This document shows, in pieces, positions 17,667 through 54,123 of a DNA stretch of 64,000 nt. A program made the position numbers and the translations under genes. The notes under the pieces are model-generated. The model made no database searches and was not told the origin of the DNA. It saw nothing but the letters and a program-made list of their open reading frames with translations. Location of the stretch: assembly GCF_923079645.1 (NCBI RefSeq), contig NZ_CAKLPY010000001.1:1508001-1572000 (forward strand). Direction: 5' to 3'. The DNA comes from Emticicia aquatica (lineage in GTDB: Bacteria; Bacteroidota; Bacteroidia; Cytophagales; Spirosomataceae). The number at the start of each line of letters is the position of its first letter. Position 1 is the stretch's first letter.

Positions 17667-17702
17667 TAAGTCTATAATTATCATAGACTTACTCTATATT
17701 TG
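17667..17702 (+). promoter_or_regulatory. 25-bp palindrome over a TATATTTG promoter of the sulfur operon
   Basis: TAAGTCTAT (17667-17675) and ATAGACTTA (17683-17691) are perfect inverted arms around AATTATC; the whole 25-bp palindrome has one mismatched pair. TATATTTG, an exact -7 element, follows at 17695-17702, 24 nt before the ATG at 17727. The palindrome covers where the -33 element should be, which suits a repressor or activator site controlling sulfate assimilation. The regulator is unknown. Confidence 0.6.
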
Positions 17703-17726: not shown

Positions 17727-19811
17727 ATGCAAAGTTTTCGGACAGAGTTAGAAAATCCTTTAGTCGAAAAAGACATTATAGATTTAGAGCGAAAAATCAG
17801 ATTGTTTCGTGAAGGAAAAATCCATGAAGAAAAGTTCCGTAGTTTGAGACTCGCCCGTGGCGTTTATGGACAACGTCAACAAGGTGTTCAAATGGTTAGA
17901 ATCAAATTACCTTATGGCAAAATGACGCTTAATCAATGGAAGCGAATCGCTGATATTTCTGATGAATATTCGACTGGAAATCTACATTTCACTACTCGCC
18001 AGGATGTACAAATTCACTTCGTAAGTTTAGAAAGAACACCTGAATTGTGGTCCAAACTAGAAGAAGAAAGTATCACTCTCCGTGAAGCTTGTGGAAATAC
18101 AGTTAGAAATATTACTGCTTCTCCAACTGCAGGCATTGACCCAAATGAGCCATTCGATGTAACACCTTATGTTCATGCTACATTTGAATATTTTCTTCGC
18201 AACCCAGTTTGTCAAGAAATGGGTCGAAAATTCAAGATGTCATTTTCAAGTACCGACGAAGATACCGCTCTCAGTTATATGCACGATTTGGGTTTTATCC
18301 CAAAAATTCAAAACGGAAAACGTGGTTTCAAAATCATGTTGGGTGGCGGATTAGGAGCTCAACCTCAATTAGCTTATTTAGCTTATGAGTTTTTAGAAGA
18401 AGATTTAATTATTCCTTTTGTTGAAGCTGTTTTACGAGTTTTTGATCGTCACGGTGAAAGAAATTCACGTCATAAAGCACGTCTCAAATTCTTAATTGCC
18501 AAAATCGGATTTGATACATTCATGAATTTGGTTGAAGAAGAAAAACTTTCACTAAAAGTAAAGACTTTCAAAGTAAATACAGAAAAATTTGCATTAGAAG
18601 CAGGTATAGAAAATTCAATAATTGATAACTCTTCTAAATCTGAATTATACAATAATTGGTTCAAAACCAATGTTTTTGCTCAGAAACAAACTGGTTATTA
18701 TGGTGTATTTGTTAGGGTTCCATTAGGAAACATTTCGAGTACAGTTTCAAGAGCTTTGATAGAAAAACTTTCGGGTTTTGTGGCTGATGATGTACGAGTT
18801 ACTGTTAATCAAGGTTTATTACTTCGCTTTGTAAAAGCAGAAAACCTTAGCTATATCTTCGATTTGTTATCAACATATAATTTGGCTGCTCCAGGTGCAA
18901 ATAGCATTGTAAATATAACAGCTTGCCCAGGAACTGATACTTGTAATTTAGCGATTTCAGATAGTACAAGTATTACGCTCGAATTGGAAAAAGTTTTGAA
19001 AGAAGACTTCCCAGAATTGATTGAAGAAAACAATATGCAAATCAAGATTTCTGGTTGTATGAATGCTTGTGGGCAACACAGCATGGCTCACATTGGTTTT
19101 CATGGAAGTTCTCTAAAATCAGCAGGAAAAGTTCTTCCTGCATTACAAGTTTTGTTAGGTGGTGGTACTGTTGGTAATGGAACTGGTCGAATTGCAGATA
19201 AAGTAATCAAAATTCCTAGCAAAAGAGGGCCTCAATTGCTAAGAGTTCTGTTAAACGATTATGAATCGAATGGAATTGAAGGAGAATATTTTAATGATTA
19301 TTACGACCGTCAAGGAGAAAAATATTTCTACGCATTATTGAAACCTTTAGCTGATTTAACAACATTAGTTGATACAGATTTTGTTGATTGGGGACGAGAT
19401 GAAATTTTCCAAACTGAAATTGGTGTTGGTGAATGTGCCAGTGTAATCATTGATTTAGTGGCAACACTTTTCTACGAATCTGAAGAAAAAATTGCTTGGG
19501 CAAAAGAAGCTGCTGATGAAAGTCGTTGGGCGGATGCCATTTATTATGCTTACCAATCGCAAGTAAATACAGCAAAAGCACTTTTATTAGATAAAAACGT
19601 AAGTTGCAGTACACAAAATGGTATTATCACCGAATTTGACAAACATTTTGTTGACGAATTTGGAGGTAATTTTAAAACCCAAGTTTTGCAGATAAATCAA
19701 AATGAACCGAGTCAAACTTTTGCGGTTGATTATATCACAGCTTCAGAAGATTTCTTGAAACAAGCAATGATTGTTCGTGAATCGTTAAAAAAAGAATTTG
19801 AAATTGCTTAA
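17727..19811 (+). CDS. Assimilatory nitrite/sulfite reductase with C-terminal HEPN-like domain
   Basis: Reduces sulfite to sulfide (or nitrite to ammonia) with a siroheme-[4Fe-4S] centre; the gene context favours sulfite. 694 residues. The ferredoxin-like half domain appears in GVYGQRQQGVQMVRIKLPYG, siroheme-binding region I in NLHFTTRQDVQIHFV, and the cluster cysteines in TACPGTDTCNLA (about residues 398-406) and SGCMNACGQHSMAHIGF (about 440-446). From about residue 550 an all-helical tail (VGECASVIIDLVATLFY, WADAIYYAYQSQVNTAKALL) is not part of classical reductases and resembles a HEPN domain. There is no flavoprotein CysJ next door, so the electron donor is probably ferredoxin. First gene of the sulfur operon. 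Confidence 0.85.
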   Translation: MQSFRTELENPLVEKDIIDLERKIRLFREGKIHEEKFRSLRLARGVYGQRQQGVQMVRIKLPYGKMTLNQWKRIADISDEYSTGNLHFTTRQDVQIHFVSLERTPELWSKLEEESITLREACGNTVRNITASPTAGIDPNEPFDVTPYVHATFEYFLRNPVCQEMGRKFKMSFSSTDEDTALSYMHDLGFIPKIQNGKRGFKIMLGGGLGAQPQLAYLAYEFLEEDLIIPFVEAVLRVFDRHGERNSRHKARLKFLIAKIGFDTFMNLVEEEKLSLKVKTFKVNTEKFALEAGIENSIIDNSSKSELYNNWFKTNVFAQKQTGYYGVFVRVPLGNISSTVSRALIEKLSGFVADDVRVTVNQGLLLRFVKAENLSYIFDLLSTYNLAAPGANSIVNITACPGTDTCNLAISDSTSITLELEKVLKEDFPELIEENNMQIKISGCMNACGQHSMAHIGFHGSSLKSAGKVLPALQVLLGGGTVGNGTGRIADKVIKIPSKRGPQLLRVLLNDYESNGIEGEYFNDYYDRQGEKYFYALLKPLADLTTLVDTDFVDWGRDEIFQTEIGVGECASVIIDLVATLFYESEEKIAWAKEAADESRWADAIYYAYQSQVNTAKALLLDKNVSCSTQNGIITEFDKHFVDEFGGNFKTQVLQINQNEPSQTFAVDYITASEDFLKQAMIVRESLKKEFEIA

Positions 19812-19822
19812 TTATTATAAAA

Positions 19823-20704
19823 ATGAAAAGAATCGCACTTGCATTGAGTGAAAATGTTCAAATGAAATTCATAGCTTATGCTATGATTTTTATGAAAATT
19901 TCGCTTTTAGGAATTCTTGCTTACAGAATTACAACTGGTTTAAACCAATTTAATTTTACTTTCGACACCATTCTTTTATACTATATCGGAATTGGTTTTT
20001 TAGCCCAATTAGTAGATGGAGCTTTAGGAATGGCTTACGGTGCATCGTGTACATCTATGCTTTTGGGCTTAGGTGTACCGCCTGCTTATGCAACAGCAAG
20101 TGTTCATACTGCTGAGGTTTTTACAACAGGCGTATCGGGGCTTTCACACATCTATTTTGGTAATATTGATAAAAAACTATTTTTCAGAATTGTTTTGACG
20201 GGAGTTCTTGGAGCGATGATTGGTGCTTATCTTATTTCTGATGTTTTCGATGGAAAAATGATAAAACCTTATATTTCAATCTATATGATTATTTTGGGTA
20301 GTATCATTATCTCAAAAGCATTCAAAAAACGTCCAGTTGAACCACAAAACAAAAACTTAGGTCTTCTTGGCCTTTTTGGAGGTTTTTTAGATTCAGTTGG
20401 AGGTGGTGGTTGGGGACCATTAGTTACCTCAAATCTTATTAGTAAAGGAAATGCTCCAAAAGAAACCATCGGAACTGTAAATACTGCTGAGTTTTTTGTG
20501 TCATTTTTTAGTACGGGCGTTTTCATGTTGTTTATTGATATTCAAGCATGGCAAGCAATTGCTGGTTTAATCATTGGTGGCGTTTTTGCAGCTCCGCTTG
20601 GTGCTTTTTTGGTTAAACTTTTTCCTCCTAAAACTATTATGATTTCGGTTGGGGTTTTGGTCGTGCTATTAAATATTTGGAACTTGTCGAAAGTTTTGTT
20701 CTGA
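19823..20704 (+). CDS. TauE/SafE-family sulfite/organosulfonate permease
   Basis: Polytopic inner-membrane transporter of the TSUP family, proposed to move sulfite or related anions. 293 residues with about eight hydrophobic segments. The two half-repeats are visible as LAQLVDGALGMAYGASCTSML and GGFLDSVGGGGWGPLVTSNL, together with the conserved HTAEVFTTGVSGLSH and NTAEFFVSFFSTGVF motifs. It starts 11 bp after the sulfite reductase gene. In this position it may export excess sulfite or take up a sulfur anion; the direction is not readable from sequence. Confidence 0.88.
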   Translation: MKRIALALSENVQMKFIAYAMIFMKISLLGILAYRITTGLNQFNFTFDTILLYYIGIGFLAQLVDGALGMAYGASCTSMLLGLGVPPAYATASVHTAEVFTTGVSGLSHIYFGNIDKKLFFRIVLTGVLGAMIGAYLISDVFDGKMIKPYISIYMIILGSIIISKAFKKRPVEPQNKNLGLLGLFGGFLDSVGGGGWGPLVTSNLISKGNAPKETIGTVNTAEFFVSFFSTGVFMLFIDIQAWQAIAGLIIGGVFAAPLGAFLVKLFPPKTIMISVGVLVVLLNIWNLSKVLF

Positions 20705-20722
20705 ATAAAATAAAATTTGACA

Positions 20723-21403
20723 ATGATAGACACTTTAGAAAAATTATCTTTAGCAGAAAGCCTCAGCTTTGTTGCCAATAAATATCAGCCAAAAGTAGTT
20801 TTTTCTACCTCTTTTGGTCAAGAAGACCAAGTAATTACTGATGCTATTTTTACTCAAGATTTAGCAATAAAAATTTTTACACTTGATACTGGTCGTCTTT
20901 TTCAAGAAACTTATGAACTGATAGATAAAACTCGTTCGAAGTATAAAAAAAATATTGAAATATATTTTCCAAACACTGAAAATACACAAAAATTAGTTAC
21001 TCAAAAAGGAGCAAATAGTTTTTACGAATCAGTAGAAAATAGAAAGGAATGCTGTTTTATCAGAAAAATTGAACCCTTAAAAAGAGCTTTGGCAGGAGCT
21101 GAAGTTTGGATTACAGGTTTAAGAGCCGAACAATCTGAAAATCGTAATGATATGAAGATTTGGGAATGGGACGAAGGAAACAAAGTTTGGAAGTTCAATC
21201 CATTGATTCATTGGACTTACGAAGATGTCTTAAACTACATTAAAGAAAATAAAGTTCCTGATAATCCACTTCACCGAAAAGGCTTTGTAAGTATTGGTTG
21301 TTTGCCTTGTACACGAGCAATTGAGCCGCACGAACACCCAAGAGCAGGCCGCTGGTGGTGGGAGGAATCGCAAAAAGAATGTGGTTTACACGCAGCAAAA
21401 TGA
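20723..21403 (+). CDS. cysH: Adenylylsulfate reductase, Fe-S type (CysH family)
   Basis: Reduces adenylylsulfate to sulfite using thioredoxin or glutathione. ATG 20723 is preferred over a TTG six bases upstream; 226 residues. The PP-loop-like VVFSTSFGQEDQVI, LDTGRLFQETYEL and ITGLRAEQSENR are the nucleotide-site blocks. Cysteine pairs RKECCFIRK and GCLPCTRAIEPHEHPRAG bind a [4Fe-4S] cluster, and the C-terminal KECGLH holds the catalytic Cys. The CC...CxxC pattern marks the APS-using type, not the PAPS-only E. coli type, and fits the lack of an APS kinase gene (cysC) in this operon. Confidence 0.92.
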   Translation: MIDTLEKLSLAESLSFVANKYQPKVVFSTSFGQEDQVITDAIFTQDLAIKIFTLDTGRLFQETYELIDKTRSKYKKNIEIYFPNTENTQKLVTQKGANSFYESVENRKECCFIRKIEPLKRALAGAEVWITGLRAEQSENRNDMKIWEWDEGNKVWKFNPLIHWTYEDVLNYIKENKVPDNPLHRKGFVSIGCLPCTRAIEPHEHPRAGRWWWEESQKECGLHAAK

Positions 21404-21551: not shown

Positions 21552-22487
21552 ATGAGTACGATTTCAGAAAAAACAACGGTTTATCAAGCCAATGACAGTT
21601 CTTTTCCAAGAGAATTGGAAGACGAAGCAATCTATATTTTACGTGAAGTTGCTTCGCAATTTGAAAAACCAGCAATTCTATTTTCGGGTGGAAAAGATTC
21701 AATTACGGTTGTGCGATTAGCTCAAAAAGCTTTCTATCCCGCCAAAATTCCATTTGCCCTTCTTCATGTTGATACAGGTCATAATTTCCCAGAAACGATT
21801 GAATACCGTGACTGGTTGGTCAATAAATTAGGTCTCGAACTTCATGTTCGTTACGTAGAAGATTCAATCAAACAAGGCAAAGTAAAAGAAGAAACAGGAA
21901 AATATGCCAGCAGAAATGCTTCTCAAACTGTAACACTTTTGGATGCAATCGAAGAATTTAAGTTTGATGCCTGTATTGGTGGAGCAAGACGTGATGAAGA
22001 AAAAGCTCGTGCCAAAGAAAGAATTTTCTCAGTAAGAGATGATTTTGGTCAATGGGATGCAAAAAAACAACGTCCTGAGTTATTTGATATGCTCAATGGA
22101 AAAATTGAATTGGGTGAAAATGTAAGGGTTTTCCCAATTTCAAACTGGACTGAATTAGACGTTTGGAATTATATCAAAGAAGAAGAATTAAGGATTCCAT
22201 CAATCTATTTTACGCATGAACGTGATGTTTTTGAACGTGATGGCATGATTTGGGCTGACTCTGAATTTATAAATAAATCAGAAGATGAAATTCCATATAA
22301 AACTCAAGTTCGATTCAGAACAGTTGGAGATATGACTTGTACTGCCGCCGTTGCATCAACTGCTGATAATTTAGACGATGTTATCGGAGAAATTCTTTCC
22401 GCCCAAATTTCTGAACGTGGAGCAAGAATTGATGATAAACGCTCAGAAGCAGCCATGGAAAAACGTAAACAAGCTGGATATTTTTGA
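21552..22487 (+). CDS. cysD: Sulfate adenylyltransferase small subunit
   Basis: Catalytic subunit of ATP sulfurylase, which makes adenylylsulfate from ATP and sulfate; works with CysN. 311 residues from ATG 21552. The PP-loop SGGKDSITVVRLAQKAF, the HVDTGHNFPETIEYRDW block, ACIGGARRDEEKARAKERIF and the C-terminal GDMTCTAAVAS are all family signatures. It lies 148 bp after cysH and 63 bp before cysN on the same strand. Confidence 0.96.
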   Translation: MSTISEKTTVYQANDSSFPRELEDEAIYILREVASQFEKPAILFSGGKDSITVVRLAQKAFYPAKIPFALLHVDTGHNFPETIEYRDWLVNKLGLELHVRYVEDSIKQGKVKEETGKYASRNASQTVTLLDAIEEFKFDACIGGARRDEEKARAKERIFSVRDDFGQWDAKKQRPELFDMLNGKIELGENVRVFPISNWTELDVWNYIKEEELRIPSIYFTHERDVFERDGMIWADSEFINKSEDEIPYKTQVRFRTVGDMTCTAAVASTADNLDDVIGEILSAQISERGARIDDKRSEAAMEKRKQAGYF

Positions 22488-22556
22488 TTTACGTTTGAAT
22501 ATTTTTCCCAATTTCAAATAAAATAAAATCACCTTTCATAAAAAGGTTAAGTGGTT

Positions 22557-23816
22557 ATGGATATATTAAGAATTGCAACAGCAGGTTCGGTAGATGATGG
22601 AAAAAGTACACTCATCGGACGTTTATTGTACGAAACTAATTCAATTACAAAAGATAAAATAGAAGCATTAGAATCTGCATCAAAAAGAAAAGGTCTCGAT
22701 TTTTTAGATTTATCTCTTTTGACAGATGGACTAATTGCTGAGCGTGAACAAGGCATTACGATTGATGTTGCTCACATTTATTTTAGCACACCAAACCGTA
22801 AATATATTATTGCTGATACGCCAGGTCACTTTGAATATACTCGAAATATGGTAACTGGAGCATCAAACACTTCGGTTTCTATTATTTTGATTGATGCTAG
22901 AAATGGTGTTGTCGAACAGACAAAACGTCATTTCTACATTTCATCAATGCTACGAATCAAAAATATTGTAGTTGCTGTCAACAAAATGGATTTGGTTGGA
23001 TATAGCCAAGAACGTTTCAATGAAATCAAAAACGAACTTTTAGCTATTGCTGAACAAGTAAGTTTTGAAGGGCAAGAATTGCAATTTATTCCAATTTCTT
23101 CACTTTATGGTGAAAATCTAGTTCGCAAATCAAGTGAAACTCCTTGGTACGAAGGTGAAACTTTATTAAACACTCTCGAAAATGTTGCTACTCAAAATTC
23201 GGAGTTGAGTGTAAAAAATGCTCGTTTTCCTGTTCAACAAGTGATAAGACCAAAAACTGAAGAATTCCACGATTATCGGGGTTATGCTGGAAAAATTGCC
23301 AGTGGTAGTTTTTTTGTAGGCGATTTAGTAGAAGCTTTACCAAGTGGACAGATAAGTAAAATCAAAACAATTGAAAAATTTGGCACAAAGTTAGAAACTG
23401 GAAAAGCCAAAGAATCAGTTGTTATTACACTTGAAGATAATATTGATGTTAGTAGAGGAAATATGCTTGTAAAGGTTGGCGAACAACCCGAATCACGCAA
23501 AGAAATTGAAGCCAAAATTTGTTGGCTTGATGGACAAATGTTAACTGTAGGTAAAACATATTTACTCCAACACGGAATTAACCGTGTAAAAGCAAAAGTC
23601 ACTAAGGTAAACTCGCTAATTGACATCAAAAACATGTCTTTGAATAACACCCCACCTGCGGATGGAGGCATAAAATTAAACGAGATTGGTTGGATAACTA
23701 TTAAAACCGCTAGTCCTATTTATGCAGACAAATATGAAGAAAATCCTGCGAATGGTTCATTCATTTTGATTGACGAAATGAATAATGGTACAGTAGGTAT
23801 TGGATTTGTAGAATAA
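22557..23816 (+). CDS. cysN: Sulfate adenylyltransferase large subunit (GTPase)
   Basis: GTPase subunit that drives ATP sulfurylase activity of CysD. ATG 22557 is preferred over a GTG two codons upstream; 419 residues. EF-Tu-like G motifs are AGSVDDGKSTLIGRLLY (G1), the EQGITIDVAH switch I, DTPGHFEYTRNMVTG (G3) and NKMDLVG (G4), followed by two beta-barrel domains. There is no C-terminal APS kinase (CysC) domain, consistent with direct reduction of APS by CysH. Last gene of the sulfur operon. Confidence 0.96.
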   Translation: MDILRIATAGSVDDGKSTLIGRLLYETNSITKDKIEALESASKRKGLDFLDLSLLTDGLIAEREQGITIDVAHIYFSTPNRKYIIADTPGHFEYTRNMVTGASNTSVSIILIDARNGVVEQTKRHFYISSMLRIKNIVVAVNKMDLVGYSQERFNEIKNELLAIAEQVSFEGQELQFIPISSLYGENLVRKSSETPWYEGETLLNTLENVATQNSELSVKNARFPVQQVIRPKTEEFHDYRGYAGKIASGSFFVGDLVEALPSGQISKIKTIEKFGTKLETGKAKESVVITLEDNIDVSRGNMLVKVGEQPESRKEIEAKICWLDGQMLTVGKTYLLQHGINRVKAKVTKVNSLIDIKNMSLNNTPPADGGIKLNEIGWITIKTASPIYADKYEENPANGSFILIDEMNNGTVGIGFVE

Positions 23817-24011: not shown

Positions 24012-24641
24012 TTACTTAATCTCCTCCACAACATTATGATCTTCTTTTTTCTGTGATTTTGGAATAACTATATAATCTTCGAGCACATTTTCTTCTTCAT
24101 TTCTTTCAGCTTTTTTCATATAAAATGATTTTGCACGACTAAACCAACCTTTATACTTTTTAGCATCTTTCCGAGTTCGATAATAGCGTAATCGATACTC
24201 AACATAAGGATTAACGATATCTTCAGGGTATTCAAAACTATTAGCTACATCAATATCACTTTGAGTTAAGACTCCGTTTTGAGGCACGCCTATGATTTTT
24301 TCAAAAGCAACAATATTTTTATTATCAACACCAACTCCAGCATTTATTAGATGGTCAATTAAAACTTCGGCTACTTCTTGGCTTTTAAACTGATTTCCTA
24401 AAAAACGATTCCAATAGTGATGTCGATGAATGTAAAGTGCTTCTTCTTTTGAGAAAATTTTATCACCCCAAATTGGTTTATGAATGCCGTAACCTTTACC
24501 TTCAAATCTTAAAAGTTTAGGTGCATATTTATTGAATGAAGCTGCTTGATTAACAAAAGTTACGCAAATAAATGATAATATGCTGATTGCCAGCAAAGAA
24601 AGTAAAACCTTTTTGATGTTCATTGATTTTGATTTTTTCAA
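24012..24641 (-). CDS. Secreted GH108-like putative peptidoglycan hydrolase (paralogue 1)
   Basis: 209 residues from ATG 24641; ATG 24623 (MNIKKVLL) is an alternative. An N-terminal hydrophobic segment (VLLSLLAISILSFICVTFV) acts as signal peptide or anchor. The body resembles lysozyme-like family GH108: a Glu-Gly start LLRFEGKGYGIHKPIWGDK, then AEVLIDHLINAGVG and IIGVPQNGVLTQSDID, where family members have a vN-G and a lG-x-x-DG-x-iG block. The usual EGGY...GGxTxxGI loop is shortened so that FEG runs directly into GYGIHKP. The presumed catalytic Glu is kept. The charged tail is Lys/Glu-rich. It is 230 bp from a close paralogue on the same strand. Confidence 0.6.
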   Translation of the reverse strand: MKKSKSMNIKKVLLSLLAISILSFICVTFVNQAASFNKYAPKLLRFEGKGYGIHKPIWGDKIFSKEEALYIHRHHYWNRFLGNQFKSQEVAEVLIDHLINAGVGVDNKNIVAFEKIIGVPQNGVLTQSDIDVANSFEYPEDIVNPYVEYRLRYYRTRKDAKKYKGWFSRAKSFYMKKAERNEEENVLEDYIVIPKSQKKEDHNVVEEIK

Positions 24642-24871: not shown

Positions 24872-25477
24872 TTATTTTTTTACAATAAACTCATCATCAT
24901 TTGTCTTTTCTTGCAAATTAGTTTTGATAAGTATTTGCGGTAAAATCAAATGATTTGCCAAGAAATTCCCTTCTTCATCAGTAATCATAAAGCTTTTTGC
25001 TCTTTTGGACCATCCTGAATTTTTAGTAAAATTTTTCCTTGTCGTGTAAAAATAAAGTCGATAATTGACGAAAGGATTGATGATTTGCTCAGGAAATACA
25101 AAAGCGTTTGCAACTTTAATATCGGCTAGTGATAAAAAACCATCTTGCTTAACGCCAATGATTGCCTCAAAAGCCCTTATGTGAACAGACTCTTTACCTT
25201 CCCCAGCATTAATAAGTTGGTCAATTAAAACCTCAGCAACGCCTTGATTTGTGAAGTTTGAAGCATGATATTTGTCCCAATAATGCTTTTTATAAATAGT
25301 GAATGCGTCGTTTTTTGAGAAATTTTTGTCACCCCAAATAGGCTTGTGAATACCGAATCCGATGCCTTCAAATTTTATAAGTTTTGGAAAGTATTTTTCG
25401 AAAGAAGCAGCTTGTAAAAACTGAATGGAAATAGAAAGTAGAAGTGTTAAAAGAACTTTGTTTTTGTTAACTATCAT
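24872..25477 (-). CDS. Secreted GH108-like putative peptidoglycan hydrolase (paralogue 2)
   Basis: 201 residues from ATG 25477; the in-frame region upstream (to 25501) lacks a signal-like start, while MIVNKNKVLLTLLLSISIQFLQA is a good signal peptide. It aligns by eye with the downstream paralogue throughout: FEKYFPKLIKFEGIGFGIHKP, IWGDKNFSKNDAFTIYKKHYW, AEVLIDQLINAGEG, IIGVKQDGFLSLADI, NPFVNYRLYFYTTRK. The FEG Glu and the block preceding the peptidoglycan-binding-like repeat are kept. Function is inferred as cell-wall degradation or remodelling; no enzyme test can be read from sequence. Confidence 0.6.
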   Translation of the reverse strand: MIVNKNKVLLTLLLSISIQFLQAASFEKYFPKLIKFEGIGFGIHKPIWGDKNFSKNDAFTIYKKHYWDKYHASNFTNQGVAEVLIDQLINAGEGKESVHIRAFEAIIGVKQDGFLSLADIKVANAFVFPEQIINPFVNYRLYFYTTRKNFTKNSGWSKRAKSFMITDEEGNFLANHLILPQILIKTNLQEKTNDDEFIVKK

Positions 25478-25501
25478 GTAAAGTATTACGATGTTGAACA
25501 C

Positions 25502-53323: not shown

Positions 53324-53959
53324 TTATTTATTTGGTTGAGGAGTATAACGTAAATAGGGTTTTACAATTCTTACACCTTTAGGGAATTTTGCAATGGCAT
53401 CTTCTGTCGAAACTGCTGGTACAACGATTGTATCTTCACCATCTTTCCAATCGGCTGGTGTTGCAACTTGGTAGTTTGAAGTAAGTTGTAATGAATCAAT
53501 TACTCTCAATAATTCGGTAAAATTACGACCAGTTGAGGCTGGATAAGTGAGTGTTAACTTTATTTTTTTATCTGGTCCAATGATAAAAACCGAACGAACC
53601 GTTGCTTTTTCAGAAGCATTTGGATGAATCATATCATACAATGTAGCCACATTTCTATCGCTATCAGCAATGATTGGGAAATTTACAACTACGCCATTTA
53701 CTTCTTCGATATCAGGAACCCATTTGCCATGTGATGCCAAATCATCAACAGAAACTGCAATTACCTTTACACCTCTTTTGGCGAAATCATCTTTTAAAAG
53801 AGCCGTTTTTCCTAATTCTGTTGTACAAACTGGTGTAAAATCGGCTGGATGAGAAAACAACATTCCCCATGAATTTCCTAGCCATTCGTGAAAATTGATT
53901 GTTCCCTGCGTAGTTTCAGCAGTAAAATCAGGTGCGATATCTCCTAATCTGAGTGACAT
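53324..53959 (-). CDS. Peroxiredoxin, 1-Cys (Prx6-type)
   Basis: Reduces hydrogen peroxide and organic peroxides in the cytoplasm. 211 residues, the length of the Prx6 group. The peroxidatic C45 sits in FSHPADFTPVCTTELG; no other Cys occurs in the protein, so it is a 1-Cys enzyme and needs an external reductant. Further blocks: VSVDDLASHGKWVPDIEE, FPIIADSDRNVATLYDMI, VRSVFIIGPDKKIKLTL and NFTELLRVIDSLQLT. A -7-like TACTTTG occurs upstream on the minus strand. Confidence 0.95.
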   Translation of the reverse strand: MSLRLGDIAPDFTAETTQGTINFHEWLGNSWGMLFSHPADFTPVCTTELGKTALLKDDFAKRGVKVIAVSVDDLASHGKWVPDIEEVNGVVVNFPIIADSDRNVATLYDMIHPNASEKATVRSVFIIGPDKKIKLTLTYPASTGRNFTELLRVIDSLQLTSNYQVATPADWKDGEDTIVVPAVSTEDAIAKFPKGVRIVKPYLRYTPQPNK

Positions 53960-54123
53960 ATATTTGTTGAATTATAAGTTTTTAATAAATTAATCTACTA
54001 ACTTTATAGAGAATTGTTTTTTTATAAAAATAGTTCACAAAGTAGCTAAAAAATATTGAATAGATTCATGCGAAAAATCATAAAATCTCTAAAAATAAAT
54101 TTTGATTAAGTCTTCAGATTCTT

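Follow-up and report, generated by a model that had tools for sequence, protein, structure and literature searches.

A conserved palindrome before the sulfate assimilation operon of Emticicia and a candidate CymR-like Rrf2 repressor

The Rrf2 family of regulators contains the Fe–S proteins IscR, NsrR and RsrR, which target Fe–S assembly or NO defense, and CymR, the repressor of cysteine metabolism in Bacillus and Staphylococcus. In IscR, the cysteines are spaced C-x5-C-x5-C. The operators of NsrR, IscR and RsrR have two arms flanking a 7-bp center to which no base-specific contacts are made (PMC9338935), and CymR of Bacillus controls cysteine genes and senses cysteine by way of CysK and O-acetylserine (PMC3828012). 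In the literature that we searched, i.e. open-licence papers, we found no published regulator of sulfate assimilation in Bacteroidota.

Here, we consider a palindrome that precedes the sulfate assimilation operon in a window of 64,000 nucleotides from an Emticicia genome (G000:C1:1508001-1572000). We propose, with a probability of roughly 0.74, that this palindrome is the operator of an autoregulated, CymR-like Rrf2 repressor with four invariant cysteines that controls a sulfur/thiol regulon; binding, sign and signal are parts of this proposal that we infer. An Rrf2 repressor of sulfur genes is a known kind of regulator, and what is new to the searched literature is the phylum, the operator and the cysteine signature. 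As the operator and the candidate repressor are both named and a regulon is predicted, the proposal is directly testable.

The palindrome and its conservation before cysI

The palindrome has perfect 9-bp arms around a 7-nt center (TAAGTCTAT AATTATC ATAGACTTA), with a core of TCTAT-N7-ATAGA at 17671-17687, and it can alternatively be paired as a 25-bp dyad about one base, in which 11 of 12 pairs match. Such a 9-7-9 arrangement in a promoter is what is expected of an Rrf2-type operator, i.e. an inverted repeat of ∼23–25 bp with a 7-bp center. On its 3′ side lie TATATTTG and then the start of cysI (Table 1). Judged as a Bacteroidota-type promoter (TAnnTTTG plus a TTG near −33), the sequence has the invariant −7 element, and a TTG is missing where the −33 element is expected. 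The initial annotation had placed the palindrome directly 5′ of an exact −7 element, over the −33 position, and ahead of a five-gene sulfur operon, and this description is borne out: the center of the palindrome is 20 bp 5′ of the center of the −7 box, and the genes read cysI-tauE-cysH-cysD-cysN. The arms are also as perfect as described, but the palindrome is not the largest when all inverted repeats of the window are considered; arms reach 21 bp, and several of the longer repeats carry terminator-like T runs.

Table 1. Positions of the palindrome, the cys operon and the second predicted regulon member within the window
Feature	Position	Strand	Remarks
Operator palindrome, TAAGTCTAT-N7-ATAGACTTA	17667..17691	.	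From sequence and conservation in relatives
TATATTTG, Bacteroidota −7 element (TAnnTTTG)	17695..17702	+	Invariant in 11/11 Emticicia genomes
cysI-like sulfite/nitrite reductase (NIR_SIR)	17727..19811	+	Operon gene 1
TauE/SafE sulfite exporter family	19823..20704	+	
cysH, adenylylsulfate/PAPS reductase	20717..21403	+	
cysD, sulfate adenylyltransferase small subunit	21552..22487	+	
cysN, sulfate adenylyltransferase large subunit	22551..23816	+	
1-Cys-type peroxiredoxin	53324..53959	-	Second predicted member of the regulon
Second operator-like site, TCTACTAACTTTATAGA	53994..54010	.	∼35 bp before the peroxiredoxin gene

As a separate observation, two similar adjacent proteins encoded on the minus strand (24012-24641 and 24872-25501), which by eye look secreted and peptidoglycan-acting (GH108-like), are probably a tandem duplication.

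How unusual is such a palindrome? Inverted repeats with arms of at least 9 bp number 24 in the window as compared to 4–14 in shuffled sequence, and when the 162-bp intergenic region is itself shuffled, a 9-bp-arm repeat is present in 3.8% of shuffles and the 11/12 dyad of 25 bp in 0.33%. With matches at these frequencies, the palindrome taken alone is modestly unusual and the evidence from it is too weak, and thus it is conservation that decides. Within the genome, the exact palindrome occurs once; four further sites come within three mismatches of it, two of them coding and two not before sulfur genes. The pattern RTCTAY-N7-RTAGAY is found at two places genome-wide, one before cysI and one within a reading frame, which together with the single exact copy rules out a dispersed repeat.

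For the comparison of cysI upstream regions, 80 relatives and 10 further Emticicia genomes were used, with records that partly overlap. TCTAY-N7-RTAGA precedes cysI in all 11 Emticicia genomes (7 exact, 4 with the single change RTAGG), and among the other Cytophagales (Arcicella, Flectobacillus, Siphonobacter, Pseudarcicella and others) it is exact at 18 of 19 cysI loci, the exception being one locus with one mismatch (L017). The remaining 415 kb of the same 30 loci hold 0 copies of the motif, and the shuffled expectation is ∼0.02. Mean identity across Emticicia is 0.96 in the half sites, 0.83 in the 7-bp center, 0.58 in the flank and 1.0 in the −7 box. We conclude that the palindrome is a genuine regulatory site in the DNA and that it is conserved. 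The two findings that the initial annotation had named as counting against an operator, i.e. absence of the palindrome before the same operon in close relatives and dispersal through the genome, were accordingly not encountered. In Flavobacteriia and most Sphingobacteriales, the strict motif is mostly absent.

The Rrf2 protein L097 as candidate regulator

Because the Rrf2 family includes CymR, we looked for Rrf2 proteins. The Emticicia genome has two clear Rrf2 genes, L097 (G000:C7:74160-74600, outside the window) and the HypR-like L114 (C1:245805), of which the latter was rejected as the regulator, being not seen across the genus among the matches fetched and scoring far from CymR. L097 belongs to the Rrf2 superfamily (TIGR00738, 112.7 bits; cut-off 73.3). 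Orthologues of L097 are present in 11 of 11 Emticicia genomes, and PF02082 is above its cut-off in all of them. Of 61 genomes from the family, 59 encode a close relative of L097, and the assemblies of the other two are incomplete. Relatives lie within or next to a cys operon in Christiangramia, Tenacibaculum, Gillisia, Algoriphagus, Echinicola, Mucilaginibacter, Daejeonella and Anseongella; the lineages with Rrf2 genes in or beside cys operons are Flavobacteriia, Cyclobacteriaceae and Sphingobacteriaceae. The operator motif itself precedes Rrf2 paralogues in three Emticicia genomes and a relative of L097 at 6 of 29 readable loci (six genomes, four other genera), with no further copies of the motif in the loci of those six relatives. 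A co-occurring Rrf2 regulator, which the initial annotation had advised looking for, was found, and in several genomes the motif also lies ahead of the gene that encodes it; along with conservation and non-dispersal, this pattern in the sequences supports the earlier suggestion of a site for a sulfur regulator.

How does L097 compare with the regulators already characterized? Its nearest solved structures are CymR of Staphylococcus aureus and Bacillus subtilis (best PDB match E 8e-16). If the site belongs to L097, promoter content predicts that it would control sulfur/cysteine genes. The two systems differ in phylum and in promoter type, and whereas CymR has no cysteines in the aligned stretch, the L097 clade has four invariant ones there, spaced C-x8-C-x2-C-x5-C. 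Although these cysteines lie where IscR and NsrR bind their cluster, their spacing departs from the C-x5-C-x5-C ligand pattern of the Fe–S Rrf2 regulators, and the predicted targets of L097 are in sulfate assimilation rather than in Fe–S assembly or NO defense. L097 scores below the cut-offs of both the CymR equivalog NF047409 (80.5 bits vs 195) and the IscR equivalog TIGR02010 (69.8 bits vs 207.55), and we therefore file it under the Rrf2 superfamily only, as a protein that would work like CymR. The C-terminal part of L097 and its relatives shows an invariant CVSLxFYxxCxxCxxExxC-like stretch.

Could the site instead be a sulfur-regulon operator bound by some other factor, either a HypR-like second Rrf2 or an unrelated protein, with the Rrf2 genes being just targets? 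The strict site is absent upstream of the L097 gene in the Emticicia genome studied here and in its Emticicia orthologues, and the exact motif was not found before cys operons with an embedded Rrf2 gene (Tenacibaculum, Christiangramia, Mucilaginibacter, Daejeonella) or near the operon-embedded Rrf2 genes of Flavobacteriia, all of which would suit such an arrangement. Nevertheless, Rrf2 is the regulator that recurs among site-bearing regulator genes (three paralogues within Emticicia, plus orthologues from four other genera), the sole other such regulator seen being one HxlR-like gene in one genome. In addition, the closest solved relatives of L097 regulate cysteine metabolism, and the HypR-like gene was seen in this genome only, among the matches fetched. 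We consider another factor improbable, if still the strongest competitor of L097. The operators of the lineages with embedded Rrf2 genes may have diverged, e.g. ATCCTAGTAAATCCATAGGA before cysI in L072. Similar but shifted dyads, such as ATCCTAGTAAATCCATAGGA and CCTATTAATCTATAGAATTAGTAGAATATG, are observed just before the start codons of flavobacterial and related cys genes (before cysH and cysI in L072 and before cysI in L069 and L061) and could represent the operator of this same regulator in a diverged form.

Promoter geometry and proposed mode of action

In all 11 Emticicia genomes, and also in L030 and L035, the center of the site is exactly 20 bp 5′ of the center of TAnnTTTG; in L013, the distance is 31 bp upstream. 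Twelve other cysI promoters, from Arcicella, Flectobacillus and Siphonobacter, have the site center 17–21 bp downstream of the TAnnTTTG center, and the sites before the Rrf2 genes of other genera are mostly 12–13 bp downstream of a −7 box. With the −7 box taken as centered at −7, the site center is at approximately −27 or +12. The site is thus phased to the promoter, ∼20 bp from TAnnTTTG on either side, as fits the requirement of a steric repressor. Both positions would block polymerase, and the one at approximately +12 would be incompatible with ordinary activation. This geometry bears on the idea that Rrf2 binds as an activator in place of the missing −33 element. The lack of a TTG at that position and the placement of the Emticicia site 20 bp 5′ of the −7 box would suit an activator, but activation is not expected from the 12 cysI sites that would lie over the transcript start or from the autoregulatory sites downstream of the −7 box in other genera, and we regard an activating Rrf2 as distinctly unlikely.

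A role for the palindrome as RNA, i.e. as the terminator of the upstream rnz or as an attenuator or riboswitch hairpin, has even less to recommend it. The palindrome does fold as RNA (−8.2 kcal/mol, z −2.9), but it has no T run, no terminator call and no Rfam match; in Emticicia it would be outside the cysI transcript because it is upstream of the −7 box; and across genera the position of the site follows the −7 box, on either side, making an RNA element scarcely credible. A functionless chance palindrome is just as hard to credit, for the 9-bp-arm repeats that arise in shuffled intergenic regions leave both the conservation before cysI across genera and the content of the regulon unexplained.

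We favor repression by L097, which belongs to a CymR-related clade within the Bacteroidota, and the following molecular picture can be drawn. A homodimer would bind TCTAY-N7-RTAGA, each of its winged helices contacting one arm. At cysI of Emticicia, it would cover the −33 region beside TATATTTG and block RNA polymerase; in other genera, the site would overlie the transcription start. When sulfur is plentiful, Rrf2 would shut off the genes of sulfur uptake and sulfur reduction, and when reduced sulfur is short, it would release the DNA, allowing cysI-tauE-cysH-cysD-cysN to be expressed. Sensing or metal binding would probably fall to the four invariant cysteines. A bolder and more doubtful version, which we put forward tentatively, is that of a phylum-wide repressor in which the four-cysteine Rrf2 senses the pathway product directly, through a metal or Fe–S center (or through reaction with sulfide or persulfide), and acts by way of TCTAY-N7-RTAGA operators, which crossed the −7 element in the course of evolution, to control thiol peroxidases as well as the assimilation of sulfate and the transport of sulfur. 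The crossing of the −7 element by the site between genera represents a clean natural experiment on repression at TAnnTTTG promoters.

Predicted regulon

TCTAY-N7-RTAGA occurs 15 times in the Emticicia genome as compared to 13 for the reversed control pattern. As genome-wide counts show no excess over the reversed pattern, they are not taken as evidence; it is position and gene content that mark the true sites. In this genome, the genes that clearly have a site in front of them and whose partners recur among sister genomes are cysI, the peroxiredoxin gene (Table 1) and a DUF1684 gene. Genus-wide, 46 of the 68 sites that were examined fall between genes, and 37 of those are no more than 250 bp away from the gene that they precede, as compared to 5 of 19 controls, a difference (Fisher p 0.0016) that is indicative, since related genomes are non-independent and only fetched controls were classified. 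Recurrent targets are a YeeE/YedE transporter (four genomes), the peroxiredoxin (five genomes, i.e. this one and four other Emticicia), TauE, redoxins, MetY regions, Rrf2 and DUF1684, along with some genes, e.g. those of YceI and TonB receptors, that have no evident link to sulfur. From this promoter content, the recurrent targets are predicted to form a sulfur/thiol regulon. MetY was dropped as a target in the genome studied here, in which no close MetY orthologue was found.

In other Emticicia (L161, L162, L164, L165, L167), we observed a sulfur island dotted with the operator and containing additional paralogues of Rrf2 as well as MetY, a YeiH-like (Cons_hypoth698) transporter, redoxins and DUF1684. 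The operator also stands before DUF1684 genes in several Emticicia, namely L155 (G000:C1:2224635), L179 and L216, a hint that these uncharacterized proteins take part in sulfur or thiol biology.
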